DNA from: Cornus controversa | Lineage: Eukaryota; Streptophyta; Magnoliopsida; Cornales; Cornaceae | Direction: 5' to 3' | DNA length: 64,000 nucleotides | Assembly: GCA_026545225.1 (NCBI GenBank) | Contig: CM048851.1 | Coordinates: forward strand, 37,535,956 to 37,599,955 | Shown here: in pieces, positions 29,301-64,000 of the stretch | Layout of the letters: the number at the start of each line of letters is the position of its first letter | Numbering within the stretch: position 1 is the stretch's first letter | Notes under the pieces: generated by a model | What the model saw: the letters and a program-made list of their open reading frames with translations, nothing else | Database searches by the model: none | What the model was told of the DNA's origin: nothing | Program-made: the position numbers and the translations under genes

Positions 29301-32300
29301 ATGGCATGAATAGGGCCTGAATAAACAAGCATCAATAGAAAATGTTGTGGTCAGGCAACAGATATAAAGATACAAAAAATGATTAGTAGTAGTAAAGTTA
29401 CAAAACTTGGAGCGTCTGTGACTAGGTTATGAAAGAAGATAGATTTGAAATCAATTTCACCCTTTAGCAAACATCTTCATCCACACACACACACAAAAAA
29501 AAAATCCCCATCGTTTCTTCCTATCATTAGCTGATAAATTTATCAGCATGGATGACAGTTCCCTTTGTATTGATAACAAGCTTAATCATTCACACATCAA
29601 GGGGGCACAAAAATTTGACAACCAAACAAGAAGAAAGTTTGAAAAAAAAAAAACCTTTAAGCTCCTAGAGGGGTCCTACCTATGTGTGCCGAGTGTGCGT
29701 TGGGAGCCCTAGACAGGCATTGTGGATCAATATATAATGTCATTGAGTTTATTATGTCTACATGTACCTCTTTCAATGATTACAGGAAAATCAGAATGAA
29801 AATTACCACTACAAAATATTAAGAAAAGAAGAAGAGAAGAAGTACGGCTTACCTCCATTCCAGAATGCACGTTAACCCATAGGTGTGGTTCGAATGATAT
29901 AGCCAGTTTCCGCATTATTTGAGTCTCGGGTTCACTAAAAGGAGCAACTCCTGGATTTTCTTCATATGGGTCGTAATCCTGTAATTAAGTGACCAAAGAA
30001 AAATAAAAGAAAAGAAAGAATACAAAGCAAAACAAAGATAAGGTCTTACGTCATAGTTCTATAAAGTAACACAATGAACTAAAAGATGACATTCAACATA
30101 GAAAGGAAGAATAAAACATCAATAGCTGAACCCAAATTAAACTACTGAAACAATGTGAATCAACTTAAAGAGAAGACACAAGCAAACAAAGAACAGAATT
30201 GGCCATAAAGAAAACTTAAAAATTTCAAATTAGTGAAACCCAAAATGAATGAACAAAACGAACCTTCTCCTTTTTGCCCCAGTCTACACTCCAATTTCGA
30301 TTGAGATCAACTCCTCTTCCTGTCACAAAACAAAAACTTAAGTATTCTATATATTTCCAAGCAGTCATGTGATGTATTTAAAGTCATGAGAAGCCACAGC
30401 ACCATTTCTTCTCTCACAGAGGTCTCCTTCTTCGACAATTTTGCGGCCATTCAAGTTTTCCATTGGCACCACCTGAAAGATAAACATACATTAGCGTTCC
30501 AATAATACTCAAGACTAAAACAACAGACAGTTATAATCCACCTGGATTTTGAGACTCGTGGTTACAATGAAATAAAAAAAACGTTGTGTACCAATGTTTA
30601 GCAAGGAACGAATTTTAGTAAATTAGTATGAGAGCATGGAAGTAGAAACACTCTTCCCATCCAAAGTGTCGATATTGAAGTGCAAGATGGTATGATGAAG
30701 TAGAAGAAAGCATTCCCCGCCAAGTTGTAAATAGTCAAATTTAATGTTCAAATTATCATGGTGAAACAATTCAGAATAGGAGATAAAAATTAAACCTTTC
30801 TAACCAAGAGAGTACGAAAAATAAGAAGGTACTCCAATCAGTTTGAGTTTGTAGGGAAGCCTGATTTGATTCTTGCACGGGCAAACAGTAAACTGATAAA
30901 AAGTCATATATATTTATGTACATGCACATTTTATACAGATGCTTACACACAGACACACACACACACACCAATCTATAGTCACCTACTCAATCTTTATCTG
31001 TAAAGGGAAAACATTACCTTTATGAGAAGCTTATCAAGGGTGCTGTTTAATGAAATTGGATCCATGTTGTGTAGAAATTGCTCTTCACTTAAGATGGAAA
31101 GGATCCTTAATGCAAGCTCAGATGTAATGAGTTCCCTTCCGTGTTGGCCAAAAGTCTGGAAGACAAGTAATCATCTGTCAAAAACACCAGCAATTACCAA
31201 TCTGAGATATTCTAAACACTAAAACTCAAATTGCAAATGTCATCTGCAAGGTACACTACTATTTTTATTTAAACTTTAAAAGATTAAAACAATTCAAATG
31301 CAACACAATCACATTTATGCCTAGAAAGAAAACTTACAAGAAGGACCCGAAACTTTGACTTGTGATCACTCTCTTTCCTATTCCGGCAGTAAGTAACTAC
31401 AATCATCTCTGCTTTATAACCCTTATTTTTACCTCTAATTTTCTCCAGCTGTATAACATATGAATTATTAGGACTGTGATTCAAGCAAAATGACCAATGA
31501 AGACAAAAAGAATATAACACCTACAGAGAATTTGTCAGGGTGTCGATGGACCAAGGTTTTTATTTCTTCCATCAAAGCTCCACTGCAAAATCCCACAAAC
31601 CGAACTCATCAAAAGAAATAAACTAGCTAAAATATAAAATAATGTGAAGTAATTGTATGATAAAAGGAAAAACAAAATTGAGTTCTATGTTATCTGCTGT
31701 TTGATTCAGACAAGGAGAAACACAATTAATCCAAATAGTGTCGAGTATCAATTGAATGGAGGTCATAATTTTCTAAGATCCCAGTTAACAAAAATTTGAC
31801 TCTAAACAAAAAGTTCTTTCTTTTCCAAACTTTCTCAGCAACCAAACGAGCTTTAATTCTAATTTTAAATTATTTATTCTTCAATTAGGCGCAGATCGAT
31901 GCTACAAAACCCAGAATCAAACAAATTGAAGTGACAGGTCAACACGTGAAAATATTAATTCCTCATATCCAGCATAACAGTAATTAAAAGCATATTATGA
32001 TGTGGATTGAATATTGAGACTAGAGAACACCTCTTTTTTTATTGTTATGTGACTAATAGAATTTGGAAACATATTTGTAACAAAGGGGCTTTGAAATGGC
32101 CTGAATGAGCTTGGGATGGCTCGCTGAACTAGTGTAATCTGGTTTTAAAAACTAAATCTCTGATGTCCCTTATGAATATATGGTGCTTTGCTGCTACAAT
32201 GTATCTGATATGGGCTGAAATGAATAAGAGGATGTATGAGGGCAAGTATAAACAGGAATCTGAGATTCAACAGGAAATTATTCAAACTGTGAGATTTAAA

Positions 32301-40551: not shown

Positions 40552-40596
<45 letters not shown>

Positions 40597-41941
40597 CAAA
40601 AGCTATTATCAGTGTAACATATAAAAATATTACCTAGAGACAAAATGATGTAAATCAACATGAAATAATAGTTCTTTGGCTTTAATAGGAGCAGTATAAG
40701 TGTCATGCTTCCTCCATATCTAGAGCTTTTACAAGAACATGTTTCTGAGTTTTTTTTGAAATTATTGAAGGCAAAAATTCTTGCATAGTCTGGAGGTAGA
40801 GATTCCTGAAATTCATAAATAGGATGTTCCATAGCTTCCATGCTAAGAGGTAGAAGAATTTATTTTACAGAGCACAAACAGTAACGGTCATAAGAATTAC
40901 TTTAGGGTCCCATGATGAGGTCCTGAAGGACTTGAGGCCTCTATACCTGGCAAAACGTTTTCGAGCAGGAACATCTATCGGGGGTATCCACTTCGTCCGA
41001 GAATTCTCAAATATAACAAAGTACTATTAAAAACCATGAAACAATATACTCGCACAAGAATCAAGATTCTGACAAGAGTAGAATCTCTAAAGGATACATA
41101 CAATAAACATCCAGCCACTCAAACCATCTCAATTGGAAAATTCAAAAATGAAAGATAAAATTCAAATATACAAAAGCAACCTTCTTAGTCTTCAAGTGAG
41201 ATCAAACCTATAAATGCACACCATACAACAAAATAAAAAATAAAATAAAAATTAAAAAACTTGTTTCAAGCAATTTTGTCATCTTGTTTCTTGTTTAAGG
41301 ACCTAGGGGTAAAATATTACAGTAAGGTTTCAAATTGACTTAAGATTCCTAATGTAAAGGGGAGAGGGGCATGGAGGATATCCATATGCAAAATTAAGCG
41401 GATGTCACATGTTCCATGAGAAACAAATGCTCACCCAAGATGAACTACACAACAGGCCTGCTATAAATCCTGAACTTCTGGGTCTGATTAACAATGACAA
41501 GGTTAAAAACTGCACTAAACCCCACAATGGAAGGAGTGACGAAGAAAAGGAAAAAAAAACACCGACACACACACGCACACTAGACATTCAGTGCGGCTCA
41601 TATAAGAAATATAGTAGAATCTTCAGCTAAGATATGCAGGGCACTTCTGTGAACAATCGGAAGGTAGACGCTGGCAGCAATGAAAACCACAATCACAGCC
41701 ATCGTCTGTTTGGGCACTTAAAAAAAGTACTCATTTTTATGAAGTCCAACAATGCACAAAGAAAATGGGCATGATTATTTTTTTATCATGGATCTAGTCC
41801 ACAAACATTCTTCGCTATTTAACTTCTAGTGGTTTCAGATAAAACACAAATCAAGAGAAGTAATTAGTCAAATAGAAGCTTAACTGCTAGTATGCCAGAC
41901 TTTAATATCAAAGTTTGAACGAAAATCAACATAAGCAAAGT

Positions 41942-42222
41942 AAGCAACAACAACCAAGCCTTTTTCCAATTACTTGGGGTCGGTTACATGAATCCTATAT
42001 TTCCATTCCGCTCTATTTAAGGTCAATGCGTCGCTTAAGGGGAACGCCCTAGCATTTACTCGTGTATTCATACGATTCATGTTCATATTAGTCATGACAT
42101 AGTTTTACGTCGGCTGTCAAGCTAGCTGACACAACCCTCCTCCTTTATCCGGGCTTGGAACCAGCTGTGTAAGAAAATACAAGCGGAGTTCCGCCTATGT
42201 TTCTTAACACAGGCGGAGTTAA
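41942..42222. repeat. Dispersed repeat inserted in the TSR1 pseudogene
   Basis: About 280 bp absent from the parental intron at about 2333-2360. It begins AACAACAACCAAGCC and contains CTTGGGGTCGG, GTCAAGCTAGCTGACACAAC and ATCCGGGCTTGGAACCAGC, phrases I recognise from a widespread plant repeat of unsettled class. A duplicated CGGAGTT occurs near its right end. Boundaries are approximate. Confidence 0.6.
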
Positions 42223-42977
42223 TTAATTGAAGACCTTGTACTTCAGCAACTGTACATATTTTACGCTATAAATTGAACACTAACACTACTATCGGTTCCA
42301 CAAAAAAAATAATTATCTGGAACAAAGATAAGTACCCTCATCTTGAGCATGTGCAACTTTGATTTTCTGAATCTCATCTTCTATCTGCTCCTTCGTCAAA
42401 CTCTCACCTCCCTACAAGGGAAGGTAAACCTTTAGGATCCAAGAGAGAATTTATGGTGGCATACAAGGAAGAAGACATGTCTTTTGACAATCTGGAAAAG
42501 TGAAAATGACTCACTCGAGAATTTACCAGCAAAAATAAGAATATGCATTAGCAATGACAATGAAACAACAGTGTGCTAAAATATCAAATGCAGTGATGAA
42601 ATTAGAACATTAAGTAACAGTAACCTAGTTTTGGACTAATTACAAAGTTCAACAACTTATCATTTTCCATCAACAAGATCTATATGCTTTTTCAGAAACA
42701 ATAAGAATCAGTTGACTAAGTGCAATTGAGCAACCATGGCCTACTAAAACTTTTAAATTTGAAATGCAAGTTCTTAATCCAACCTCCCCATCCCTTCTTT
42801 CTTTCTTTATGCCATGAAACTTATAAAGCACTAGATTAGATAAGTGCCACAGTACACAAAAACCATCCTCATGACAAAAAGCCTACAAGAAGGTTATCGA
42901 GGCGATAACTGAACAGTAACAGAGCTATGCAACATACTAATAGAAACTGGGGCTAACTCTTTACTTATGCACCCCTT

Positions 42978-43405
42978 CATGGCGTTGATATCAGGATCTG
43001 TCTTTCTGGGCTAACTCCGCCAAGATTCAAGATTCAATCCTAAATGCCCTCCGGTTTCCTCTTAAAGTCAGGATGTCATCCCGATCTGCGGGCTTGCCAC
43101 TTTCAATCAAGATCATCTGATCCAGGAGCGGGCTATTCTATTGATATTATGTATTTTCATTTATTCGAATAATGATGCTTGATGGAAGGCCAAGAAAGGA
43201 TCTGTGCTCAACCCTGAATTTTCAATTCAGAAAACCTCAGGGGTTACAGAGAAGCAGATTAGAACTGAAAGTTTCAAATTTTTTATTTTTGGACTAGGAG
43301 ACAAGGGTGGAATTGAGACCCAAACAGTTGGAATCCATTTAGATTGAAGGATTTCAAATGAAGGAATATATATTTACTCATTCAAAAGAATTACAACATA
43401 AATTT
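42978..43405. repeat. Two tracts present only in the duplicated copy
   Basis: Relative to parental 3318-3435, the copy has about 190 extra bases at 42978-43170 (starting around TTGATATCAGGATCTG) and about 155 extra at 43250-43405. Without a third sequence I cannot say whether each is an insertion here or a deletion in the parent. Neither shows coding potential. Confidence 0.5.
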
Positions 43406-44335
43406 AAAGTGAGTGATCTGGGTTTCAGTTTTAACAGTGACTTGAGAGTCTCGTATGTATGGATTTCAAACAATAAGGTGGAAGGAGTTAAATAAAATCC
43501 ATGTCTTTAAGGATTTTTATTGCACAATGATTGCAATAAAAGATGTCTCTCAAACTTTATTCTAATATCCCCTTGAGTTTTAGAATCCAACTTCAATAAA
43601 CAATATTTTGTTTGAACTCAAAACTATTCATTTATCAAAATGTATCATTACGTTGAAAGTCCAAAAGAATAAAAGTAGGCCGAATGGTTATGTCTCGATC
43701 ATACAATTTGCAGATCAACAAGGGCTTGAAGGTTTTTCCATTGCGTTTAAATCCTTGATTTGAAAATCCCATAGAACAATAGGTATTAATATTTTCCTGC
43801 GATCACAATGGTAACTGATATTGTAGTTCCCTCTTAGCTCTTAGCTCTTAGAACATTGAACTGGACAACATATTTGTTGAGTTAAAATTTGTTCATCCTA
43901 GAAAAAGGAGGATCGCTGTGTTGATTATAATTACGATCTGACTTTTTCTGCACCTACTTACATCTACTAACATTTCCAATTATGATTTATCATGATATCA
44001 ACGATCTAATAATAAATATTCTTGATAAGAAGAATTGCACATTAACACTCAGGCATGTAACATTTACACTACTAGTAAAGTATATCCCCTATAACACTCA
44101 CCATAATCACAGAATAAACTTCGGTTTCTTCATCTGAGTCTCTGAAATTAAGTGAAACTGAAGCTTGGTCATCATGAATGTCCAATTTTTCATTAACCTC
44201 TTTGCCAAGGAAACCACTATATCTCTTTCATCCAACATCATGCCATCATCATCACTATTTGAATAGCTACATTTGAGTAAACGGCAATCCAAGCAGCCTA
44301 CGAAATTAAATTTTTACATATATTATATCAACCCA

Positions 44336-45296
44336 GTGACATATATATTTGTAATTGACAAATTTCGGTGTCAAAACTGAGTATGATCGAGTTTTAATTT
44401 TTCATTTAAATTCTTGTAATCAATCACGAAGTTGAAGACCAAGAGGATAAATCATAAAGCTGAAGGAACTTGATCATCTAAAGCATTCAAGTGGATTCTA
44501 ATGTTCATGGACATTGTTGAATCAAGTGTGAGTCACATAGTCTAAATAAGTGTGTGAGAACACATAGTATTTCATAGGATGAAGTCCGATTTTAAAAATT
44601 AGGGTTTTAAAGTTATTTTTCAGTAAGGAAACTTCTGTTTTGACTCTAAATTGATTTCTAAAATCCCTGAAACTTTGGGAAAAGTTTTAAAGGGTTTTTA
44701 ACTTGTTTTTCAAGTAATTCTAGGATTTCATCATCAATAAATACTCTCTTATGTTTTCTCTCAAATTATACTTTCAGAAAAATATTGTTTTAGAGAAAGC
44801 TTTGAAGTATTTCTAGGGCAAAAAATTCTTCATTAATTTTTTGTTTATCTTTCTTTGAGAGCACACACATATACACTGAGTGATTTAGGGTTGTGTCTCT
44901 CTCTGCTTGATCGATCATTCGAAGATCGCTTCACGAATTGCCTATTGATTAAGTCATTGGATTGTTTGGTTTGTTCTCAATTGTTTGCTGGTGAGGAAGG
45001 AGAAGACGATCGCGCTACGAAGGGAACAAAATATTCGCGGAGTATTCGTGTTCTTCCAGCAACCCTTCTGCAAGGATTGTGACGTTAGCCTGAAGTCTGC
45101 AGCAATTGGACGAGAAATCGCAAGAGTAAGTCTGAGGCGTTCAACATCAAATTCTTGCCCGTGGTTTTTTCCCCGTTCTGGGTTTTTTCACGTATATTTG
45201 GTGCCATCTCTACTTGCTTGCACTTTACTTGTGGTTGATTGATTAATTTTTTACACCCCACACCCCCCCCAGTAGCCACTTCTGCACCGTGCAACC
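44336..45296 (+). mobile_element. LTR-retrotransposon fragment, probably Copia-type LTR
   Basis: About 960 bp inserted between the pseudogene copies of exons 13 and 12, absent from the parental site at about 4340-4352. The 3' part contains the tract TTTTTTCCCCGTTCTGGGTT followed by TTTCACGT, typical of the R-U5 end of plant Copia LTRs. A candidate LTR runs from TGACATATAT to TTTTTTACA near 45.25 kb, followed by about 40 bases of C-rich DNA. The small reading frame at 44855-45242 lies in this LTR and is probably not a gene. No clear target duplication. Confidence 0.55.
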
Positions 45297-46966
45297 TTCT
45301 CACCATCAAGAAACATATACGAGGCCTTGTCCAAGACAACAAGTATAAAAAAGTACAAACCTGGTATTCAGAGGTGTCAAAGGTGCCCAGAGGAAGAATC
45401 CTTCTTCTCACTCTCTTCTCCTTTTGATATCTATCAACTTCAGCCATTTCCTCCTCTGTTGACTATGTCTGATTAAAAAGAATAACACTATAAACAACAA
45501 CTCCAAAAGCACAATAAACACACACACCCCTTAAAAAAAGATATATTATGGTAACAAAGTAAGTCTGGAGAAAAGTTTCGAATAAATCAACTGCCATACA
45601 AAAGTAACAGGTTAAGAAAAAGAAGAAGGGATGAAGTAATTAGAAATGATTTAAAAAAATTATATATAATAGGATATATGACTTGTAATTGAAAAGAATG
45701 GAAAAAGAGGATTCAGGCGATCGACCTCATTCATATAGGATGAAGGCATGATTACACCAGAAAATTATCTGGTAAGTTAGACAAGATTACATCCCTAGGA
45801 AGCCGAATAATTTAAATATATATATTTTTCCAAGCTACCTGTTCTGCTGCAAGAGGATCCAGAACATTTTCAACAAGTAAAGGCTATTGCTTCATAGGAT
45901 CGTGGTCTACGGAACTGATGACCTGCATCATTTAAGCCGTAAGATGAATTATGATGAAACACACAATTGAATTGCTACATAAACAGACTTAAAGAAGACA
46001 ATAGCCTGGCTTTGTAGCCCAAGTGGTATCCAAAACGTTGTAATTTTTTTTTTTTGACAAGTATTCATTGAAGAGCGCCCAAAAAGGGCGCGGTGGCCCA
46101 GAACTGGTATGTTTTCTTCTTCTTTTTTTTTTTTTTATATAAGCAGCAAAAAAGTATGAATTCGATGGTACCCAAAGAAAAATGACAGTATCTCAAGAGA
46201 AATGCATTATTATTTTTTTCTAAAAAAAAAAGAAGTAAAGATAAGCACACGTGCATCGCCCCATTTTAAATTGAATGGCCAAGACACGCTTAGTACCATA
46301 ACATAACTATTGCGATTGAGCTCATTTTTTCCCCCTTTTTGATAAGCTAAAATCATACTTAACATTTCAATATGAAACATTATCATAAACATATCAATGA
46401 TCAATCAGGCTCAAATATTACGTACACTTTAACTAATTACACCTTTCAAAACATGCTCAGATAAGAGTTCAATGTAAATTGTAATTACAAGCAAGATATT
46501 TGAATTGAAGACTCATCGGAACTTTGTTCAATTGCGTTATAGCGTAAAACACCTTAATGATTGAATATTTCGTGCTTTGAAACTGAATATGAGTCGCCGT
46601 TGGGGGTAGTAGATTTCACAGAGGTGCATATGAGTCGGTCCAATTCAGGTCAATTGTAAACCCAGAACCAAACCAGCCTAGGTTAAAATTGTAAGTCAAT
46701 CGCTATACTGAGGAGTTGGGATTCATCAACCCACCACAGGGTTACAGCCCATTCATAGGGTGTCTGTCACAAAAAACTATAAAAGAGGTGAAATCGGAAT
46801 TTTCTCTTCCAGTATCTGGGATGAACTTCCCGGTCTCTGCAGAAGTCAATGAATCCACATCAGATACCACTTATAGGATGAGGACTTGTTTGCCACATAA
46901 AACTATAAAAGACGTAAAAGGGGAATATTCTCTTCCAGTATCTGGAATGAACTTCCCAGTCTTTTA

Positions 46967-47624
46967 CATAGTTGTTAAAGGCTCAAGGCGCACTAAGGCG
47001 CTAAAGCCTCCTGGAGCCTGAGGCGCGGGCCTGACTGAAGTGAGGCGCAAGTTGAATTTTTTTTAAAAAATATAACATTTGTAGTGAGTGAGTGAAACAA
47101 TGTAGAACAACTACAATTGAGAGCAAATAAAAAGCATATTCATGGCAATTAACAACAAATGAAACAAAAAAAAAAAGAGATTCCGGAGTGAGTGAAAAGT
47201 GAGAACTGAGGAGATGCTTGCAAACTATTTACATGGCAACTCCCCATTATGAAACTAGAATACTAAGCGCCAAAAAAAGCTATTAATCAGTGAGGCTAGA
47301 TCACAACAGAACAGAGGATGTGGAGGAATTAAATTGAAGAATAAAAGAGAAAAATCATTGATTTTCTGATATGAAATTACTTCAAAGATTAAAAAAAATA
47401 GAACAAGAATAAGACAAGGTTTTGAAGAAAAACAGATTAAAAAAAACTAGGCATGCACAGGTTCTGCAGAAGTTTGAAGAAGAAGAAGAGAGGAAAAAAA
47501 AAATAGAGCATGCACTTGCTGCGCCTCGCACCTATTTGCTTGAGGCGCGCGCCTCTTTCAAAGCACCTCGCCTGGACATACCTTAGGCGCAGAAGTTGCG
47601 CCTCACGCGCCTTTGACAAGTATG
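46967..47624. mobile_element. Non-autonomous hAT-like element with GGCGC subterminal repeats
   Basis: A 658-bp insertion in the TSR1 pseudogene with 8-bp target duplications GTCTTTTA (46959-46966 and 47625-47632). Termini are inverted: CATAGTTGTTAAAGGC and, on the other strand, CATACTTGTCAAAGGCGC. AGGCGC repeats crowd both ends; the middle is A-rich. The parental intron has the empty site at 6127-6134. No transposase. Confidence 0.88.
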
Positions 47625-50600
47625 GTCTTTTACATGTGCAGAAGTCAATGAACCCACATCAGATATATAGACAATCATAGCACAGTCGTTTTCTTTCTCA
47701 TTACCGCTCTAAAAAGATTGCAGGGCCTATCTGCTTTACTAATGAGATATAAAGGACTTTTCTCGCTTGTCTAAAACTACATAAGACTTTCTTCAATTAG
47801 TAAACAAGGGATGGATCAGAAGTCTGATAAGGCTATAAGAGATAGGGACTCCAGTAGTAAGAAACAGTCACTCAGTGAATCGCTCCATCAAATACTTTGA
47901 GATAGGGATAGAGGCGTGTCGGACTATTTATGAAGCATAGAAGTGTTTGGATGTTCCGAAACAATGGTAAATGTAACGAATGAGACCTTCAAAGGTACTT
48001 GCCCTTAAGTTCACAAGGATATGCCCAACACCTACCTTTCCAACTAAGTGCAACGTGATGACCCTTTAATTGACAATGTGCTTCCTATGAGGCCCTTTTC
48101 CCTAAATATCTTGGGAAGCGAAGAGGACAGGTCTGTAACCTGTTTGGTAAAATTATCCCAAAACTAGTCATTTACCCGATGAATTAATATCCTGAATCGC
48201 TATATTATTCGATAAGATCCTCATTACATATAACTTGCAATAATTAATCAATCATGAGGAGAAGGAGATGCGTGGATTATCAGTTGGTAGTTCCACTGAG
48301 CTAATATAGGGTATATGCACCATCGGAGTCATTTCATGCATGCGGATTAGAATCTAACCAATCTCATTGGTTCTTTAAAATTTGGCTTGCAGCACTAGAC
48401 CAACTTAATGGAGAACCGAATGAAAACAAGCCATGAAGATCAGATTAATTCCATTCTCAGGTTAGTCAGTCCAAATGAGCACCCCTAGTTTGAATGAAAC
48501 TTGATGACAAAAAATGATACTTCACATAAGAATTTAGATATTAAAAACTTAAATTACTATCTCCCTTTATTCTCTTACGCATTCCATGTCTTATCCCAAA
48601 ATTTCTCCTATATTCTTCTGCGTTTTTTAAAACCAACATTTTCTTTAAAAAGATGTATAAAGATTGATACAGGACCACCAAAAGCATAGCTTCAGCCATC
48701 GTAGCAACAAGTAAATAACTACACTAAGAAGTGACTCAGTTAAAGTTCCAGGTGAATGGCCAAAACACCACTGATCTGACTGGCCACAAGAGTATGCTAG
48801 ACCTACAATTTGTTAGAAAATATAGTCATAATTGGAGTCAACTCCATGTTCTTTGAATAACAAGGTTCTAACCTATAAACAAATGTCCCCCCTAAACACA
48901 ATTTGTATCCTTCATTTCCGATTCTTTAAAAAACATTAAATGCCATTCTCCAGAAATTTTCTTAATAAGCAGGTCTTCTACAACCTTTTTAACAACCAGA
49001 ATAATCAATCAAGGGATATCTGCTTTAACTTCTTAGGGTTCCGAGAGATTTTCAGTTTTGACTCCCTCACATAAATTGAAAAATGCTTCTTTTTGCAGGC
49101 TACTTATTTTTTTTTTTTTTTTCCCCGGAAGAGTACTTCAGAACTCGTATTAGAGCTTAAACACTTCACCTCCTCTTTAGTCATGGCAGGAGATACCACG
49201 GAAGCTAACAGCAGCCGGTCGTACCCCAAGTCCGTATCTTTTTTGATTTTTGTCAACATCGTAGGACTGAATGAAACGTTGAAAAGATTCTCAGAGTCCA
49301 TTCTATTTTGCCTCTTCAAGATGATATCACGGTTTTGTGTCATTGCTTTGATTTGTACTCATTTCTTTGAGATAATAAAGAAACAAAGGAAAAAGTTGGC
49401 CACTTTACATGTAAAACAAAAATATCCTATTTGAGATGAACAATTTTACCGTGACTTCAATTTTTTCTCTTGTTTCTTTGGGAGGACAGAGGAATTAATG
49501 ATCTTATATGAAATATAAAATCCCACTGGAGATAAACGGTTCAAGCTAATGCAATTGTATATAGATTGTGTATGGAACAGTAGAATCAGGACTGGAAAGC
49601 ACCTAGCTTACAAAAGGAGGGTTTCATCCAAGACTGCATGTCATTGAAATGTTTTATTAATATTTTACAGCATTAATATTTCTTGCTTTTATAACATTAA
49701 ACACCAAACATTCTACTTGTTTTAATGAACCCCAAGATACATTAAACTACAACACATAAAAATGAAAAAAAGTAAACAGTGCAATACCAGGCTGACAGCA
49801 AGTACAAGGCTTTGCACAGCCATGTCAAAATGAGTATCTAATTTCTTGTAAGCTTTTTTGTTAGGAATTTAAAAAAGCTAAAACATAAATCAAGGTTAGA
49901 AAATTTAGAAAAAAATAATGAGTATCGTATATAGAGAACATAAGTGATGATTGACAATATAGTTTCTTCTTATACAGGACATGTAAGGAATAAACGAATA
50001 GCTGCAGGTCTTGTACTTCATCTGAATCCATAAAATCCCCTCCTTTCCTCACTTAAAGGACACAGATCTTTGAGAAGTCCGACCTTGAGGTTCGTGTTCC
50101 ACTTCCAAGGCACCTGAAACATGAACCTGATCCAAAAAAAGATTAAAACACAAAATGCGATACTTAAACACAAAACGCATGTCAAATGATGAATAATTTA
50201 CCAACTGATTTACTAAGAGACAGTGAGCACATAGATAACCAGTGAGATGGAGGGTATATTTCCCTTGATTGCAATCATCAGCTACCAAATCAACCTGTAA
50301 TGCATTGATGAATTAATTAAAATGATATATATGGCCTTACTGTAGGGCTCAGATAGTAACCATTTAATAAATTGGGAGTTCAACTTCTAAAGTTTTAAGA
50401 GGACATGCGACATTTTAGGGCCACAATGATTGTAACAAGCATTGGACCTACTGGCCAAACACACACACAGACCTCCAAAAAATAATGATACAGGGAAAAA
50501 ACACAATTACACAGATAAATGAAAAGAAAAAGTATAAGAAGAATGTAAAGCAAGGAATATTTAATAACAAACATACATGTCAGTATACTTTGAGTCATTT

Positions 50601-50936
50601 TTTTCTAGGAAAAAAGCATCCCTACTAAATTAGCATTATTGAAATGAAGATGCTGATGAGAAAAAAATATAGATGGTACAGAAACTAAAGGCAATCGTAG
50701 CAAGTAAAATGAAGAAACAATGAGAAAAAGCCATGATGATTCAGTAATGTGAGCATCAAATACATATTGTTCTACCAGGATGGCGCAATGTTTGAATTAT
50801 ATGCAAGCAGCAACATGAACAACAGAACCCTGAAACAATGTGATTGGAGACCATCAAGAAACATAATGGTCTATGACCAACAAAAGATATTGCCTTGGAT
50901 AGGGCACATAACCAGCCTCATGTATATGGAGTAAAC

Positions 50937-53849
50937 ACAATTACATTATGGTGGAAAAATCAGAACAAAAATCATACACACAAATCTCTCTCTCTTTCAC
51001 CATTTTTTTTCACTGAACAAACAAATAGCAACTGAGTATTAGAGGGACACAGCGGAAACAATTGTTCTACCACCCTTTGATATTCTAGAACAAAATATGA
51101 GCATCAACGGCTACAGAAGATAACAAGAGCCTAAAATATGTTCTTATCTCCTGCATTCCAACCTTAAGCACCTCCATCTTCTTACCGTATCTATTTTTTT
51201 CCTCCATTAGATACCCATTCAGATAGTCATCTATAGATAACAACTTGCCTGAATTGGACACGGGCTCCTTCTGATGAATTTCATTGAGTTGTTGCAGACC
51301 CATATTGAACATTGTGAAGAATGCAGCAGACCAGTCATTGAGTACTCTCTGGAATCCAAAATAGAGATGAAATTATCAAGTTTATACCATACCCCTCTTC
51401 CCCCTTACAAGGGATTCATTTTTTTGTGAAACCCCAAAATGATGAATGAAATAAAACCGAGTAAGGAGTACTACTTTAAAATCTAGCATACATTGAAGGT
51501 AGTAAGGTCTACAGGATTGAACATTTTAAAGCAGGCCTTTGTGGAGGCTGTTCCATCTCCATAGATCTGCCAGTCAATGCACACAAGTAAGGTCCTCTAT
51601 GTGTGAAATCTGAACAGTAGGGAATGACTAGAAAAAGGGAGTGCATTTCACAAACCTCAAAAATGAAAGCTGTGGGTATGCTCGCAATATCATACATGAA
51701 ATCTGTTGCTGTCCCGTGCGCCAGATACCTACATTTAAGCATGTTTTAAACTTGTGAATAAAATGACAAAAAAATGAACAAGTCAAATTTTAAAACATTT
51801 TATTTCTGCAATCCAATAGCTAGCTCTAGGCTTGCTGAAGTTTAGCTCTCCCTTGAGTCCATTCATTTGTCAGCTAGAAGCTGCTACATGTTTTCCCAGT
51901 TTCCTACATGTGTTTTTTTCAAAAATTTCATGTTTCTCTTTTTGTTACATGGTGAATCTAATACAAAACAAAGGAATGAAGATAGGGAGGACCTCATTTG
52001 GTAGTGGATCCTCATTTCTATATCGAAAATTTGTGTGTATGATTTTTCTTCCTTTTCATTTGTTTTGGTAGTGGATCCTCATTTCTATATCGGAAATTGA
52101 CACTGAGCATGACGTGTCTATTGGTGAAGGGTGGGTTATTAGGTGTTTGGATAACAGCAGTATAAAGCTTCGTGGTAGAACCATATAGAACAAGATATTT
52201 GATGCGGCAAAATGGAAATACGCTTCATAAATTTATGAAAACTGAAAAAACTAAGTATACAAGTTGGTTAAAGCATCCCAAGGGAGGGGAATTCAGAAGA
52301 AAGTTGCCTTTTACTAGAGAACATTAAAAACAACCGTGAAATATGAAGCTTTAAGTCAAACAACCAAGAAGGAACACTTTAAAAGATTATTGCAAGAGTG
52401 TGAAGCTTTTAGAGAGTGGGTGGGTGCAAGGGTAAGCCCCATAAGGTATAAAATTTTGGAGAACTATTGAGATCAGAAATTAAAAGGGATAATATGTTCA
52501 TGCAACTGAAAAACTATAACAGCATCAATGTGAAGATATGCAACACAGCGCTTTAAATATAATTTTTGCCATCTCCGACAAACTGACAAGTATGCAAGTC
52601 AAATCCTAACTAATCGTCAACACCTCATAGCAGTGCATGTTTTCATGAGTTCACCACTTTTGACGAAGCACTAGTGTCAATTACATTGCCAAATTTGCCA
52701 AAGTCAGATTATATTAAGCTCACAGTAACAAAGTGATGACAACCGTGACCTAAATGCAACTACAATGCGAACACGCTAAGATCATTATAGAGGATTTTAA
52801 TGGGCTCGAATTTAACTTTGTTTCGGCCCATTGCAAACATGTTAAACTCATGAAATATTGTTAATAGCTTTCACAGAGTAATAAATTATCTAAAAAATTG
52901 GGATGATTCCGCACAGAAATCATTAGATTCAAGTAACAGAAACCAACTGAGCCTCCCCCTGATCCAACCATGCAACGGCCTTCGCAGTGCAGATAGTTCA
53001 AATTTTCAAGCATTGATCTCATTTTATGAGAAAAAATTCACTCGGAGTAGTGTTTTTATGATCATATGGCATGAATCCTCAATAAAACAAGCAGCAATTG
53101 ACAATGTTGTGGTCAGGCAACATATATTTAGATACCGAAAAAATGATTAGTAGTAGTAAAGTACACAAAACTTGGAGCTTCTGTGACTAGGTTATGAAAG
53201 AAAATAAATTTGAAATCAATTTCACGCTTTAGAAAACATCTTCATTCACCAAAAAAAAAAAATGAAAAGAAGAAGAAAAAGCCCATTGTTCGTTCCTATC
53301 ATTAGCTGATCAATATATCAAGCATGGATGACAGTTCCCTTTGTACAATATTGACAACAAATTTAATTATTCACGCATCAAGGGGGCACAAAATTTTGAC
53401 AACCACACAAGAACAAAGTTTTTTTTTTTAAAAAAAAAAAAAATAATAACTTTAAGCTCCTAGAGGAAAAAAAGGGAGGTTGGCCCTACCTATGTGTGCC
53501 GAGTGCATGGAGTCCTAGACAGGCATTGTAGTTCAATATATAATGTCATCGAGTTTATTATGTCCGCATGTACCTCTTTCAATGAGTACAGAAAAAAATC
53601 AGACTGAGAATTACCACTACAGAATATTAGGAAAAGAACAAGTATGGCTTTCGATTCCACAATGCACATTAACCCATATGTGTGGTTCGAATGATATAGC
53701 CAGCTTCCGCATTATTTGAGTGCTCGCTAGAAGGAGCAACTCCAGGATTTCTTCGTATGGGTCATAATCCTGAAATTAAGTGAACCAAGAAGAAAAAAAT
53801 GAAAAGAAAGAAAGAGAATACAAAGCAAAACAAAGAAAAGGTCTTGCGT
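50937..53849 (-). pseudogene. Carboxypeptidase pseudogene (exons 7-11 only)
   Basis: Second half of the chimeric duplication. Copies of exons 7 to 11 of the M14 carboxypeptidase are present; exons 1-6 (signal peptide, first zinc ligands) are missing. Frameshifts break the exon 11 copy in its membrane segment (reading ends FRLLLSSVAVDAH), the exon 8 copy at its donor side, and the exon 7 copy at both ends near 53.65-53.73 kb. The exon 9 copy stays readable (YLAHGTATDFMYDIASIPTA). No hAT element at the site corresponding to 28309. Confidence 0.88.
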
Positions 53850-53875
53850 CTTACTTCATATAAAACCGACTGGAT

Positions 53876-56685: not shown

Positions 56686-56841
56686 CTTGTTCTTAAAATT
56701 AGTTCTAATTGACTTCTTTCTAATGTACTATCATATTCTCATCTCTCTCATTCGTAGGAACATATAAACAGGTAAAAAGATCACATTCTTGAGACTGTGC
56801 TCAACACAAAATCTAAAAGAATGTAAAATTTGATCAATTAA

Positions 56842-57035
56842 GTATACATGTGTATAATGCATAAGTTAATAATGCAGGAAATTCTTAAAATTAGTTATAG
56901 GTGGCTTCTTTCAAATGCATTATCTTATTTTCATTTCTCTCATTGTTTTCTTGAACATATAAGAGGGTAAGAAGACTAACATTCTTGAGACATGCCCAAG
57001 ACAAAATCGAAAAAAACATGTGTGTAAAAGCAAAA
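56842..57035. repeat. About 190-bp direct repeat outside the left arm (second copy 58138-58315)
   Basis: Begins AGTATACATGTGTATAATGC and ends GTAAAAGCAAAACG in both copies; the first copy has small extra pieces. One copy ends exactly where the truncated RNase H-like gene begins (57036), and the other lies inside the left arm. A third, diverged copy lies at about 56690-56815. The right arm lacks this tract. Confidence 0.85.
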
Positions 57036-58745
57036 CGTGAAGAAAATTGCGTTATGAATGCCAGCTTTGAGAAGTTCCTCAACAGCCTTCTCTAAGGCTG
57101 TAAATTCGGCTTCAAAAGAATGAAATATCCCATTCAATTTACCAGAGAACTTCATTTGAACATCACCATTTTCCGATCTTCATACCACTGACCATCCACC
57201 CGCTTTACCTTGAAATGAGCCGTCAGTATTTATCTTAAGAAGTCCTCTGCAGGGTGGTCGCCAATAAATTATGTCTACTTCTGATTCTAACAGAGAATCG
57301 TCTTCTTGTTCAGAATGCTCTACTACATATATCTGACTTATTTCCAAAAAATGATTGATCTGCCTTCTGGATTTCTCACTTTTTGACTTGTTCATCCATC
57401 TCATGAAATCTGAAATGGATAGGTACTTTGCTCTTGCCCGACGCTTAATTAGTGAAAATTTTCCAAAGAGAAACTTTCCATTCCTAGTGAGATACTTGTG
57501 GTACCCTTGTCTGTAAAAGCATTCTCTTAAATGCACTTTTTCTTGATCCACTGTGGTACCAGTTGAATAACATCTCCGCTCTAATGGTTTGGAATTTAAT
57601 GCTGCAAAAATATTTGATAAAAATGAGCAAAATACTGCTGGTCTTGTCTTTAAGGATGAAAGAATAATTAAAACAAATGTAACAAAAGTAATCTACAATC
57701 TTTTCCAAGTGACTTACTCATTCCACGAGTGTGTCCCTCTTGGGAAACAAATAAAGTTGGCTTGACAATTTTTGTAGGGTCACGAGCCCTAGGAGCTCTC
57801 AAAGTGTAGATCTTACGTACAACTGGCAAATCAGACTTTTTGTTTGCCTTGTACATCGTGACAAGTGCCTACCCAATTCCAATAAGAAGCTGATTAGATA
57901 ATGAATGCATGGAATATACAAGTGAAAAAACTTTGATTAAGATTGTTTGAGTATTTGGTCCCCTTTTATTGTTTTCCTCTTAAAGAACGTTACAAGATGC
58001 TCCGTGTTTGGATTTAAGAATCAGTAGTAAGAGAGAGAGATTTGTTTTTTTGTGATTTGGAAAGAAGCTATTGCTTACTAAATACTTACAAGATAGGCGT
58101 CTTGGGCTCTACCTATAACATCCCATTGATTCCAATAAGTATACATGTGTATAATGCATAAGTTAATAATGCAGGAAATTCTTAAAATTAGTTATAGGTG
58201 GCTTCTTTCAAATGCATTATCTTATTTTCATTTCTCTCATTGTTTCCTTGAACATGAAGACTAACATTCTTGAGACATGCCCAAGACAAAATCGAAAAAA
58301 ACATGTAAAAGCAAAACGACTAGGGGCTTTTGCATCAAAAAGTGATAAAATCAGCAAATGGATAATGACATCAATTTCGATGCATTCTACAATTCTGCAT
58401 AATAACCAAAGCAAGCCAACACAAAATAAAAACATCCTTTTTGGTATTTTAACAATAATATGGAGCATCCTTTACTTTGCTAATGAGTATATGGGCATAA
58501 CTAAGTATAAAGATCCTTATAAACTTTTCCTCTTTGAATAGATAAATCATAGGTATTCCAGTTGATAGTCCAATCTAATAACCTGACATCAATAAGACAT
58601 GGATTTCATCTGTCATAAGCAAATCCAAATATAACACAAAGCATGTAAGCATCCCAATCGAAGTCTTACCTCTTGGACAGTTAATTTGCCGAGATACATT
58701 ATGGTAGACCTCATCACATTATTTCTAGAAAAGTTGGGTTTCAAT
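57036..58745 (-). pseudogene. RNase H-like gene, left-arm copy, truncated at 3' end
   Basis: Three exons read on the minus strand: the first ends at 58670 with a GTAAGA donor and includes MYLGKLTVQE; the second is 57868-57718 (ALVTMYKANKKSDLPVVRKI onward); the third starts at 57601 and runs to the arm boundary at 57036. The third exon covers the start of an RNase H fold (LKINTDGSF) but stops after NAIFFT, one residue before the third catalytic aspartate of the right-arm copy, where the direct repeat begins. The protein is otherwise almost identical to the right copy (GWSVV versus GWSLV). Without the end of the fold it is unlikely to be an active nuclease. The start codon is uncertain: ATG in MRSTIMYLGK or the later MYLGK. 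Confidence 0.78.
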
Positions 58746-59102
58746 CTAAAACGTCTAAGAGGAGATCTCGACACATAATAAGCACAAATTAGTAGTGTTG
58801 AAAAAGTGTAAAAATCATTAAAGAAAATAAAAAGTGTAAAAATCATTTTCATCAAACAAACAGTGTTTCAGGAACTTTAGTAGTTTTGAAAAAGCCCAAT
58901 CGGTAGCCCAATAAATCAATAGTCCAACTATCATTTTGCAAGTGTCTACCTACAAAAAGGCTCATTCAATTCGCATAGACCTAATCAATTCAAAACCGTA
59001 ACATATTTGGATACTTTCATTTCGCACTCTTAGACCTAATTGTCCTAATACACAGTTCACCTGTCCGACAATTAAGAACACAAGATCGATCTGGAATCGA
59101 AA

Positions 59103-59293
59103 ATGTCGAGTTTTCAAACTATTTCACCACATTTGAGACGTAGCAAAAGACCTGTAAGTAAATTCATTTTTAGAAATTGCTATAAAAATCTTATTAATTA
59201 TAATTTAATAATTTCAAAAACAAAATTTGATTAATTTCAACTTCTGTTTTGCACAGATTAATTGGGGACGAGAACAGTTTCTTAGTGGTCAAG
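59103..59293 (+). pseudogene. 5' exons of an unrecognised gene, left-arm copy
   Basis: Exon 59103-59153 encodes MSSFQTISPHLRRSKRP and is followed by a GTAAGT donor. A second exon, 59257-59293, after a TTGCACAG acceptor, encodes INWGREQFLSGQ and ends at GGTAAG. The right arm has the same two exons. They differ by a clean 6-base in-frame deletion and amino-acid changes, consistent with past coding constraint. Later exons would lie across the palindrome centre and are not found. Family not recognised. Confidence 0.5.
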
Positions 59294-59372
59294 GTAAGAG
59301 CTCACTGGACCCAAAATTTATCATTTATGTAATATTGAATGGGTGAAGTATGAATGAGGTGATCAAGATCGA

Positions 59373-59644
59373 ATATCTGTTGCATGTGATGGTTAAACTT
59401 AATCAGTGTTTTATGTTATGTTATTGTCTATTGATAAACAATAACATAATTTAACCAATCTGTGTGTCCCTCTTGGGAAACAAACAAAACTGATTAAGTT
59501 AATCTGTGCAAAGAGGATATCTGTTGCATGTAATGGTTAAACTTAATCAGTGTTTTACGTTATGTTATTGTTTATTGATAAACAATAACATAATTTAACC
59601 AATCTGTGTGTCCCTCTTGGGAAACAAACAAAACTGATTAAGTT
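59373..59644. repeat. 144-bp tandem pair with internal hairpins at the palindrome centre
   Basis: Two 128-bp units (59373-59500 and 59517-59644). Each contains a hairpin, TTATGTTATTG...CAATAACATAA with a TTGA loop and 15-bp stem (59416-59449 with one mismatch, and 59560-59593 perfect). Each also holds a 23-base match (59462-59484 and 59606-59628) to the coding exon at 57729-57751, sharing TGTGTCCCTCTTGGGAAACA. Confidence 0.85.
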
Positions 59645-61904
59645 TAACCCTATACGATTACATGCAATAGATATTCTCTTTGCACAGATTGGTTTCAAAT
59701 TTTACAAGTACTTTGGACGATCTTGATCGCCCCATTCATACTTCACCCATTCAATATTACATAAATGATAAATTTTGGGTCCAGTGAGCTCTTACCTTGA
59801 GCACTAAGAAACTGTTCTCGTCCCCAATTAATCTGTGCAAAACAGAGGTTGAAATTAATCAAATTTTGTTTTTGAAATTATTAAATTATTATTAGTAAAA
59901 TTTTTTATAGCAATTTCTAAAAATGAATTTACTTACAGGTCTTCGTCTCAAATGTGGTGAAATAGTTCGAAAACTCGACATTTTCGATTCCAGATCAATG
60001 TGTTCTTGATTGTCGGACAGGTGAACTGTGTATTAGGACAATTAGATCTAAGACTGCGAAATGAAAGTATTCAAATATGTTCCGGTTTTGAATTGATTAG
60101 GTCTATGCGAATTGAATGGGCCTTTGTAGGTACACACTTACGAAATGATAGTTGCACTATTTATTTATTGGGCTACCGATTGGGCTTTTTCAACACTACT
60201 AAAGTTTCTTCAATGATTTTTACACTTTTTCAACACTACTAATTTGTGCTTATTATGTGTCGAGATCTCCTCTTAGACGTTTTAGATTGAAACCCAACTT
60301 TTATCTCTCGGCAAATTAACAGTCCAAGAGGTAAGACTTCAATTGGGATGCTTACATGCTTTGTGTTATATTCGGATTTGCTTGTGACAGATGAAATTCA
60401 TGTCTTATTGATGTCAGGTTATTAGATTGGACTATCAAGTGGAATACCTATGATTTATCTATTCAAAGAGGAAAAGTTTATAAGGAGGGGAAGTCTTATA
60501 GGTCCTACCCAGTACATGCTTATACTAAGGTGTGCAACCTACCCCTTGGTGCTTTCTAATTTTCTGTGGACTTCTTTATTTCTTTTCTTTATACTTAGTT
60601 ATGCCCATATACTCATTAGCAAAGATAAAAGATGCTCCGTATTATTATTAAAATACCAAAAAGGATGTTCTTATTTTGTGTTGGCTTGCTTTGGTTATTA
60701 TGTAAAAAAATGCAAAATTGTAGAATGCATCGAAATTGATGTCATTATCCATTTGCTGATTTTATTACTTTTTGATGCAAATGCCACTAGTCGTTTTGCT
60801 TTTACATGTTATAGGCAGGGCCCAAGACGCCTATCTTGTAAGTATTTAGTAAGCAATAGCTTCTTTCCAAATCACAAAAAAACAAATCCCTCTCTCTCTT
60901 ACTACTAATCAAGTTCTGATTCTTAAATCCAAACACGGAGCATCTTGTAACGTTCTTTAAGAGGAAAACAATAAAAGGGGACCAAATACTCAAACAATCT
61001 TAATCAAAGTTTTTTCACTTGTATATTCCATGCATTCATTATCTAATCAGCTTCTTATTGGAATTGGGTAGGCACTTGTCACGATGTACAAGGCAAACAA
61101 AAAGTCTGATTTGCCAGTTGTACGTAAGATCTACACTTTGAGAGCTCCTAGGGCTCGTGACCCTACAAAAATTGTCAAGCCAACTTTATTTGTTTCCCAA
61201 GAGGGACACACTCGTGGAATGAGTAAGTCACTTGGAAAAGATTGTAGATTACTTTTGTTACATTTGTTTTAATTATTCTTTCATCCTTAAAGACAAGACC
61301 AGCAGTATTTTGCTCATTTTTATCAAATATTTTTGCAGCATTAAATTCCAAACCATTAGAGCGGAGATGTTATTCAACTGGTACCACAGTGGATCAAGAA
61401 AAAGTGCATTTAAGAGAATGCTTTTACAGACAAGGGTACCACAAGTATCTCACTAGGAATGGAAAGTTTCTCTTTGGAAAATTTTCACTAATTAAGCGTC
61501 GGGCAAGAGCAAAGTACCTATCCATTTCAGATTTCATGAGATGGATGAACAAGTCAAAAAGTGAGAAATCCAGAAGGCAGATCAATCATTTTTTGGAAAT
61601 AAGTCAGATATATGTAGTAGAGCATTCTGAACAAGAAGACGATTCTCTGTTAGAATCAGAAGTAGACATAATTTATTGGCGACCACCCTGCAGAGGACTT
61701 CTTAAGATAAATACTGACGGCTCATTTCAAGGTAAAGCGGGTGGATGGTCATTGGTAGGAAGATCGGAAAATGATGACGTTCAAATGAAGTTCTCTGGTA
61801 AATTGAATGGGATATTTCATTCTTTTGAAGCCGAATTTACAGCCCTAGAGAAGGCTGTTGAGGAACTTCTCAAAACTGGCATTCATAACGCAATTTTCTT
61901 CACG
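59630..61904. repeat. Right arm of the large inverted duplication
   Basis: Inverted copy of the left arm, ending at 61904 inside the RNase H coding exon (after TTCTTCACG). The gene continues beyond the arm to its natural stop, so the right side is more likely the source and the left the copy in this region. Closer to the axis the arms have diverged by small indels. Confidence 0.92.
59796..59981 (-). pseudogene. 5' exons of an unrecognised gene, right-arm copy
   Basis: Mirror of the left-arm pair. Exon 59981-59937 encodes MSSFRTISPHLRRRP and exon 59832-59796 encodes INWGREQFLSAQ. Splice sites are kept in both arms. The ATG faces away from the RNase H-like gene, suggesting a head-to-head gene pair with about 1.1 kb between the inner exons. 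The remainder of the gene is missing. Confidence 0.5.
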
Positions 61905-62285
61905 GATTGCGGCGACTTAGCGAATGCCATGAATGGCAAATATTCTATTTGGAATCAACAATATCAAATGCGCATCAGGTTTGTTTTTTTTATTTTACTT
62001 TACTTTCAGATTTTATTTTTTAAAGATTAACAATTTAATGTCTATTTTGGTAGGGAACTTAAGAAAAAAGCAAATCTATTTCAAAAGTTTCCGAACGTGT
62101 GGTGTAAATATTGCCCACGAGAGGCAAACATGCTTCCTGAATACTTGGCAAAAGCAGCCAGGAAGGAGGAGCATCAAAATAAAAAGACTGTTCAATCTAT
62201 TGTAGAGCAAGACATAAATGGCGAATGGTACAAAATTACTCAAAAAAGAACCTTGATTGCTGGTGAGAATATGGATCTTCTGTAG
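61084..62285 (+). CDS. RNase H-like domain protein (plant RVT_3 type), right-arm copy
   Basis: Exons 61072-61222, 61339-61978, 62054-62285, ending in TAG; 336 residues from the ATG at 61084. Residues 1-160 are basic and match no family I know. Residues about 165-300 form an RNase H fold of the plant RVT_3 group: D173 in LKINTDGSF, E212 in FEAEFTALEKAV, D236 in FFTDCGDLANAM. The last motif, PREANMLPEYLAKAA, has Glu289 where the family usually has Asp. The upstream first exon (near 60.26-60.33 kb) has lost its ATG and is shifted relative to the left-arm copy, so either this internal ATG is used or the gene is dead. The RNase H fold might descend from a retroelement or be a domesticated host gene; expression is unknown. 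Confidence 0.68.
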
Positions 62286-63560
62286 TTTTTATTTTCGTTT
62301 AGATCTTTTGTAGTTACATGGAAAAAAAAATTTTCTACACAACAAGCAACCACATATGAAAACCTACACGAAAGCAATGGACAACATATCCATGCCCTCG
62401 AAGAGTATTCACCAAAATACCCTTTTCTCAAATGAGGTCTAAAGGGTATTTTGGTATATTACATTGAAATGATGAATTGAATTTGTAATTTGAAAGGAAT
62501 GCCCATATTGCTGACTTAATATGAAAAGAGCCTTGAATTTCTGAATGAAAATATCATTTGACAAAATGTCTAGTTTTGAATACGTGAAAAGGGGACTTCC
62601 GGAAGGAAAAAAAAAGACTTAAATCGAATTCGCAAGATGTCTTTTGAAAAAATCATGTGGTTGATTTAATTTGTTTTGATAGATGATTTTTAAGAAATAG
62701 TGTACTGCACTTGGAATGCTCTGAAAAATAGAATTTGAATTTGAAAGAGACTTGTATTTGAGAACGGTCTTGAAAAAAAATTAATTTGAAAAGTGACTTT
62801 TAATAAAATCGTGGATTGAGAGTTGAAAATTGTGCTTTTAGGATGATTTTCATAACTTGAACAAATTTCTAAGGAAATTAAAGTAGAATATTCCATATTT
62901 GATGAGAAGGCTTTTGAAAATTTTAATTTTTAGGTGTTTATGAAACCTAAAGTTTTAATTTCAATTTTCATGGCCTAGACCTATCTTTTTATGTAAATTA
63001 ACATCTAGAATTGACATGTGCTTTGAAAAATGATTTTTATGGTTTTTGTGAAACCTCAAGTAAAAAAAGGTGACTTTAAGAAAACATGATTTTTTGGAAA
63101 CATGGCTTCAAAGGAACACATTACCATGAAACATTTGAAAATTAAATTTCTAAATCCTAGACCTAAAATTGGAAAATTTGGGGGGTTTCATTCACGTAAA
63201 AGATTTTGAGAGTTTAAAGATTCTTAAATTTATGTTACTTCAGGAATAGTCGAAAAATTGACTTTCCCTAAATTTCTGAGGAACCAATACCTAAAATAAG
63301 TGTAATTTAGGGTTTTGGAAAGTATTTTAATGAAGTGAAATATTCTAGGTATCTAATGAACCTACACCTTAAATATATGATTTATAGGGCTTCAGAATAT
63401 ACTTCAACGAACTATCTTTTTTTTATATACATAAGTAAAAATTTCATAGAAAGACACCCAAACAACTTCAACGAATTATCTTGTCCGAGCTATTTAATAA
63501 ACCTTGACCTAAAACATATGAATTTTAAGGTTTTAGAATGTATTTTAATGAAATAAATTA
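62286..63560. other. AT-rich stretch with diverged tandem units near its end
   Basis: No gene seen. At 63300-63560 two or three diverged units share TTTTAATGAA, TTCAACGAA(C/T)TATCTT and ACCT(A/T)..AAATATATGA-like phrases, suggesting an old tandem repeat with a period of about 130 bp. Apparent short reading frames follow the repeat. Confidence 0.45.
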
Positions 63561-63564
63561 TCCC

Positions 63565-64000
63565 ATCCAACATGCCATGACTCACCATACACCGTGTGTA
63601 GATATTGTCTGCTTTGCACAGTATCCTCTCGGTGCTCACGATATTCAAAACACGACTACACATTTAGGGGTATCTCCCCGATAGCGATGTGGGACGTCAC
63701 AATCACCCCTTTTGGGATATAGCATCTTCATTGGCCAAACTCTCATGGGGCTTGTCCTCGCTCTCCCATTTTCGACTAGGGATTGGCTCCGATACCATTT
63801 GTCACAACCTACACTTATTGTTCGCTTTGCACATACTCCTCTAGATGCTCACGGTTTTGCTCAAAACATCTACACAGTTAGAAGGCATCCACATGTTTCG
63901 TCCTCACCAACATAACCCTCGTGGACTTTTGCATGTTCCCCCATTCCAACTGAGAATTGACACTGATACCATTCATCACAACCCACCCTACTCTGTGTAG
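63565..64000. repeat. Dispersed plant repeat, two diverged copies
   Basis: Two units, about 63590-63815 and 63816-64000 (running off the window). Shared phrases include TGTCTGCTTTGCACA / TGTTCGCTTTGCACA, GATGCTCACG-like text and GATACCATT(T/C)(G/A)TCACAACC. The first also has GATGTGGGACGTCACAATCA. I recognise this wording from a common dispersed repeat of eudicot genomes but cannot name its class. Confidence 0.5.

Follow-up and report, generated by a model that had tools for sequence, protein, structure and literature searches.

According to our analysis, the window examined here (a 64-kb stretch of Cornus controversa DNA, C7:37535956-37599955, the genome searched comprising 772 Mb in 61 contigs) contains a large palindrome between positions 57036 and 61904, whose arms carry a predicted RNase H-like gene and a truncated copy of it. 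The palindrome is real; it is an inverted duplication of chimeric makeup, fairly young and of a kind already known. We think, at a probability of roughly three in four, that a host locus was duplicated in inverted orientation, that the resulting arms diverged by about 4%, and that 836 bp were then rewritten by conversion between the arms.

Arms and the identical tract

The left arm (57036-59370, minus strand) is an inverted copy of the right arm (59719-61904, plus strand). In a comparison of the 64 kb with itself (E value of 1e-10), the arms were the sole inverted repeat of such size, the other long repeats being direct, and their alignment over 2062 columns gave 50 mismatches (97.6% identity) and 11 indel events. 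Both results confirm the arms proposed by the first-pass annotation. The longest inverted block, 995 nt at 99% identity, is far beyond chance, and the arms constitute a long, near-perfect inverted repeat. Their outer flanks are unlike each other, and the window is free of N.

Identity along the arms is uneven. The first-pass annotation described near-complete identity in the outer part and lower identity at the centre, which stands for left 57189-58024, matching right 60916-61751 with 0 mismatches in 836 bp, and for the inner part (left 58020-59370), with 44 mismatches in 1078 columns (95.9%). It does not hold for the outermost 153 bp (left 57036-57188), where 6 mismatches lower the identity to 96.1%. 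On the inner side, left 58020-58121 shows 6 mismatches in 97 columns, the first five of which are part of the 836-bp tract. The tract is more identical than its neighbors on both sides (96.1%, 100%, and 95.9%), and since diverged sequence flanks it on both sides, it appears to have been rewritten after the arms had aged, most likely by inter-arm gene conversion. The earlier suggestion of conversion in the outer part is thereby supported and can now be located to these 836 bp, between sides diverged by about 4%.

Random placement of the 50 mismatches, repeated 20000 times, never gave an identical run longer than 487, versus the 836 observed. Divergence outside the tract is 4.08%, and at this rate, taken as uniform, the probability of 0 mismatches is about 8e-16 for the whole tract and about 7e-6 for its 284 noncoding bp alone. 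These 284 bp, intronic or upstream, are as identical as the 552 exonic bp (139 + 413).

The RNase H-like gene and the mosaic origin of the arms

The RNase H-like gene of the right arm is predicted to consist of three exons (61084-61222, 61339-61978, and 62054-62285, plus strand) with GT/AG borders and an open frame of 336 amino acids, the gene model and start codon having been set by eye from the sequence alone. Its product matches Pfam RVT_3 (PF13456) with an E value of 1.3e-13 and 51.4 bits, against a gathering score of 21.6. The gene reads complete, runs past the arm end at 61904, and stops at 62285; it may be functional today. The left copy (57036-57856, minus strand) comprises exon 1 and part of exon 2 without the C-terminal part and contains one in-frame TGA, just outside the 836-bp tract, and we read it as a truncated pseudogene. 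An outward-facing RNase H-like gene had been annotated in each arm; both are indeed present, but they are unequal. Since the right gene is complete and continues beyond its arm, whereas homology in the left arm ends inside the gene, cut at 57036 and with a TGA, the right arm is deemed the source and the left arm a derived, broken copy.

Beyond the arm end, positions 61905-62830 are collinear, at 78%, with a degenerate paralogue at C1:104.6 Mb that has internal stops. It corresponds to 4506-5039 of L010 (labels of this form denote loci extracted for study), and similarity to the COBRA-derived exon described below is not among the matches listed. Outside the gene's own locus and C1:104.6 Mb, the matches listed in the protein search fall in 10 places at 23 to 35% identity, 6 of which lie at 38.7 to 43.5 Mb on C7. 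Near one such distant relative, on the opposite strand, open frames at L035 98-430 resemble what we take to be a long interspersed nuclear element (LINE)-type reverse transcriptase.

The arms are mosaics of several gene sources and include captured fragments of COBRA and mutase-like host genes. The COBRA-derived fragment (right 60806-61304, plus strand; left counterpart 57637-58127, minus strand) provides the RNase H-like gene with its exon 1 and matches L009 in patches of 74 to 88% DNA identity, which cover exon 1, the start of the following intron, and about 270 bp upstream. It retains the end of one exon, an intron, a shortened exon, and the following splice donor, and the RNase H-like exon 1 (61084-61222) is this shortened COBRA exon. 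The RNase H-like gene with its COBRA-derived first exon is possibly a new chimeric gene. COBRA-type matching loci are L009 on C1, L018 on C2, and L017 on C6; the L009 exon was identified as Pfam COBRA (E value of 2.3e-64), and L017 and L018 were assigned from their translations only.

A second fragment, an exon piece with an intron (left 58357-58711, minus strand; right counterpart 60306-60753, plus strand), is similar to L011 on C10 and comes from what we take to be a phosphoglycerate-mutase-like gene. A His_Phos_1 exon (E value of 2.2e-19) lies close by in L011, on the same strand as the matching fragment. Since the 29-residue exon peptide of the L011 gene gave no Pfam match, the fragment is linked to His_Phos_1 by DNA similarity and a 16-residue match found by eye. 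At least 11 related copies of the fragment are present on C5. Those listed form two clusters, at 12.03 to 12.53 Mb and 17.81 to 18.06 Mb, in opposite orientations (5 minus, 6 plus), to which L006 to L008, L013, L014, and L039 to L042 belong, and which are possibly a large inverted segmental duplication.

The third piece of the mosaic, which lies next to the COBRA-derived fragment, is a repeat that recurs beside NB-ARC/LRR genes on C2. Since the C5 copies carry the junction of this C2-type repeat with the mutase-like fragment, the repeat-mutase chimera probably predates the palindrome. Copies A and B of the repeat stand in tandem at 56690-57037. Copy B (56830-57037, plus strand) adjoins the left outer junction at 57036, where 2 bp (CG) fit both sides, and forms a direct repeat at this breakpoint with copy C (58138-58356, plus strand), which lies inside the left arm and is mostly absent from the right one. 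Within limits set by eye (56842-57037 and 58138-58318), B and C differ by 1 substitution in 180 aligned bases, plus 12- and 4-bp indels; a wider alignment gives 17 mismatches in 210, most of them in edges that do not look homologous. At the divergence of the arms, 7.3 differences would be expected in 180 bases (Poisson P of 0.005), so that B and C seem to have been homogenized or to be younger.

The right arm shows a 183-column gap that includes copy C and lies between two copies of AACAT, and because COBRA similarity extends into the left arm there, the right arm is the one that lost this segment. The left arm in turn is without a 99-bp stretch common to the right arm and the C5 and C10 copies. 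When 24 columns differing between the arms were polarized with the C5, C10, and C1 copies, 15 were right derived, 7 left derived, and 2 unclear; several of these columns sit at a ragged alignment end, and the polarization therefore supports no conclusion.

The axis (59371-59717, 347 bp) is not itself a simple palindrome. It carries a direct repeat of 128 bp, spaced at 144, and a hairpin with 16-bp arms, and it twice holds a 23-nt exact copy of the COBRA-derived exon of the arm (59462-59484 and 59606-59628, both equal to 57729-57751). This hairpin-rich repeat has small similarity to at least 6 places on C9 and at least 1 on C1. The deletion between short repeats, the direct repeat at the left breakpoint, and the templated axis insert bear out the earlier proposal of several rearrangement steps. 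The junction and axis features fit break repair with template switching followed by erosion.

A two-exon open reading frame (ORF) start facing inward had also been annotated in each arm. It is kept in both, with its splice borders: in the left arm, it spans 59103-59293 on the plus strand (MSSFQ..., exons 59103-59153 and 59257-59293, read by eye), and in the right arm, 59796-59981 on the minus strand, with an in-frame 6-bp indel relative to the left. As a gene start, however, it contains only about 29 residues ahead of the axis. Among the matches listed in a DNA search with 58700-59720, no copy of this region lies outside the arms. The two matches listed in the protein search with the inner ORF are both in the left arm; since the right-arm copy was missed, that search says little about uniqueness, for which the DNA search is the better guide.

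Origin of the palindrome and competing explanations

We propose that the chimeric RNase H-like gene and its upstream mosaic gave rise to an inverted duplicate, most likely through a template switch in the course of replication or break repair, in which the left copy is truncated. The arms would then have diverged to about 4% with 11 indels, before conversion between them rewrote 836 bp that begin upstream, span exon 1 and intron 1, and end within exon 2. RNA transcribed across the axis would fold back as a long hairpin, which a plant Dicer could cleave. Folding of 57036-61904 (4869 nt) gave −3666.3 kcal/mol for the plus strand and −3698.0 kcal/mol for the minus strand, versus −1023.6 and −1067.3 kcal/mol for two dinucleotide shuffles, and 2024 of the 2243 pairs in the plus-strand fold link the two arms. 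Perfect pairing with the right arm is found for 1298 of 2316 left-arm 21-mers and 1230 of 2313 24-mers. Read-through RNA would thus form a long hairpin.

The locus could, as suggested in the first-pass annotation, be an active source of small interfering RNAs (siRNAs), diced from read-through RNA and silencing the right gene and possibly its relatives. Silencing is possible, and would be compatible with duplication and conversion as proposed above; it is favored by the folding energies and perfectly paired 21-mers and by the existence of such loci in plants, as described in PMC4687873, PMC6710647, and PMC9636151. We nevertheless hold an active siRNA locus to be rather doubtful. Transitions to transversions in the inner arms (29:15) resemble those in eight direct-duplication blocks of the window (461:370; Fisher p of 0.21), as do CpG to other transitions (7:22 versus 103:358; p of 0.82), so that no methylation-decay signature was found in this small sample. 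Such a spectrum shows no extra decay, yet does not exclude silencing. Among the loci extracted for study other than those from the palindrome itself, exact 21-mers are shared with L009 (14 positions), L011 (4), and L018 (3), a few with L006, L007, L012 to L014, L039, and L042, and none with L010. Those shared with L009 start at 4636-4642 and 5120-5126 and are intronic, four crossing a splice border (placed by eye) by 1 to 4 bases, and no exonic trans target was found among the loci checked. It is a still weaker conjecture, and quite improbable in our view, that this is a living self-silencing locus between birth and decay, in which the inverted truncated copy makes hairpin RNA against the chimeric gene and conversion, by making the pairing perfect again over the 836 bp closest to the gene start, keeps the hairpin effective.

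The identical tract might instead reflect duplication in two steps and no conversion, with the inner palindrome formed first and its left arm receiving a late copy of the outer block. The tract does look younger than the inner arms, and copies B and C at the block edges are nearly identical. Yet 6 mismatches fall in the 153 bp at the outer edge of that block and 6 more at its inner end, 58020-58121 (three of these at a gap edge), and because both its ends are diverged, the block as a whole looks old. We therefore deem two-step duplication unlikely.

A Pack-MULE or foldback transposable element, bearing long inverted repeats at its termini and captured gene fragments, would account for the mosaic composition and for the repeat-mutase junction common to the C5 copies. 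It is very unlikely, since the arm stops within a gene whose remainder lies in the right flank, the flanks at 57036 and 61904 do not match by eye, and a second copy of the whole arm is not among the matches listed. Nor were terminal inverted repeats with 8- to 11-bp target duplications seen by eye at these arm ends. A false inverted join is conceivable but highly improbable given the 50 mismatches, 11 indels, unlike outer flanks, and absence of N; uniform 100% identity, which had been named as the mark of such a join, is not what the arms show. Purifying selection on the exonic 552 bp has next to no chance of explaining the tract, considering the equally identical 284 bp of intron and upstream sequence, the truncation and stop of the left copy, and the divergence of coding positions 57036-57188. 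Each of these rivals (purifying selection, a late duplication of uniform age, transposon ends, and a false join) was considered and given low weight.

Several points weigh against inverted duplication followed by conversion. The structure is known from a genome assembly, and the case for conversion is made by one tract in one genome. The probability model used for the tract ignores rate variation along the sequence, and 3 of the 6 mismatches in 58020-58121 border a 13-bp gap (58025-58029). The junctions of copies B and C look old, yet the copies differ at 1 base in 180, which needs further conversion or a later duplication.

Known parallels and neighboring sequence

The literature searched offers parallels, and no paper on the present locus was recognized in it. 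The papers listed include two on the origin of microRNA genes (PMC3237417 and PMC1790633). The long endogenous inverted repeats IR71 and IR2039 of Arabidopsis are siRNA sources (PMC4687873) and resemble our locus in having a long stem-loop as a source of double-stranded RNA; here, in contrast, the hairpin is predicted and one arm holds an apparently intact gene. The soybean I locus likewise is an inverted gene duplication around a spacer, with two identical 10.91-kb inverted repeats (CHS1-3-4 and CHS4-3-1) yielding siRNAs against CHS7/8 (PMC6710647), whereas the arms described here measure 2.2 to 2.3 kb at 97.6% identity, with no exonic trans target among the loci checked. Partial duplicates of Populus ARR17 in the Y region also form an inverted repeat of partial gene copies with a hairpin; they are sex linked and give 24-nt siRNAs. 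The introduction of that paper (PMC9636151) mentions arm-to-arm gene conversion in palindromes.

Chimeras of genic Mutator-like elements (MULEs), including Pack-MULEs, similarly join gene fragments of several origins, but MULEs are defined by terminal repeats and target duplications (PMC4858842), neither of which was seen here. Origin-dependent inverted-repeat amplification (ODIRA) and microhomology-mediated break-induced replication (MMBIR) share with our locus an inverted duplication, short inverted repeats, microhomology junctions, and later erosion of one arm; the cases described in the part of PMC10766186 available are human and yeast, none from a plant, and no replication origin is known at our locus.

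The locus is a naturally occurring, fairly young inverted duplication of a gene, in which one copy is apparently intact and the identical tract is clean. Should small RNAs map to it, it would show whether inter-arm conversion makes hairpin silencing last longer, a stage on the way from inverted duplication to new small-RNA genes; should none map, it adds another case of shuffling in plant genomes.

Elsewhere in the window, 703-9198 and 40582-50936 form a long direct duplication in pieces at 83 to 96% identity. One gene start in it presumably resembles Tsr1/BMS1, the Pfam RIBIOP_C score of 11.7 bits being below the cutoff. A second direct duplication (26201-30065 and 50936-53864, 83 to 88%) adjoins the first at 50936, and because both meet there, the 40- to 54-kb region is a composite of two upstream segments. 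At 63570-63990 lies a dispersed repeat, about 300 bp long, for which the matches listed include many copies on several chromosomes at about 67 to 77% identity.

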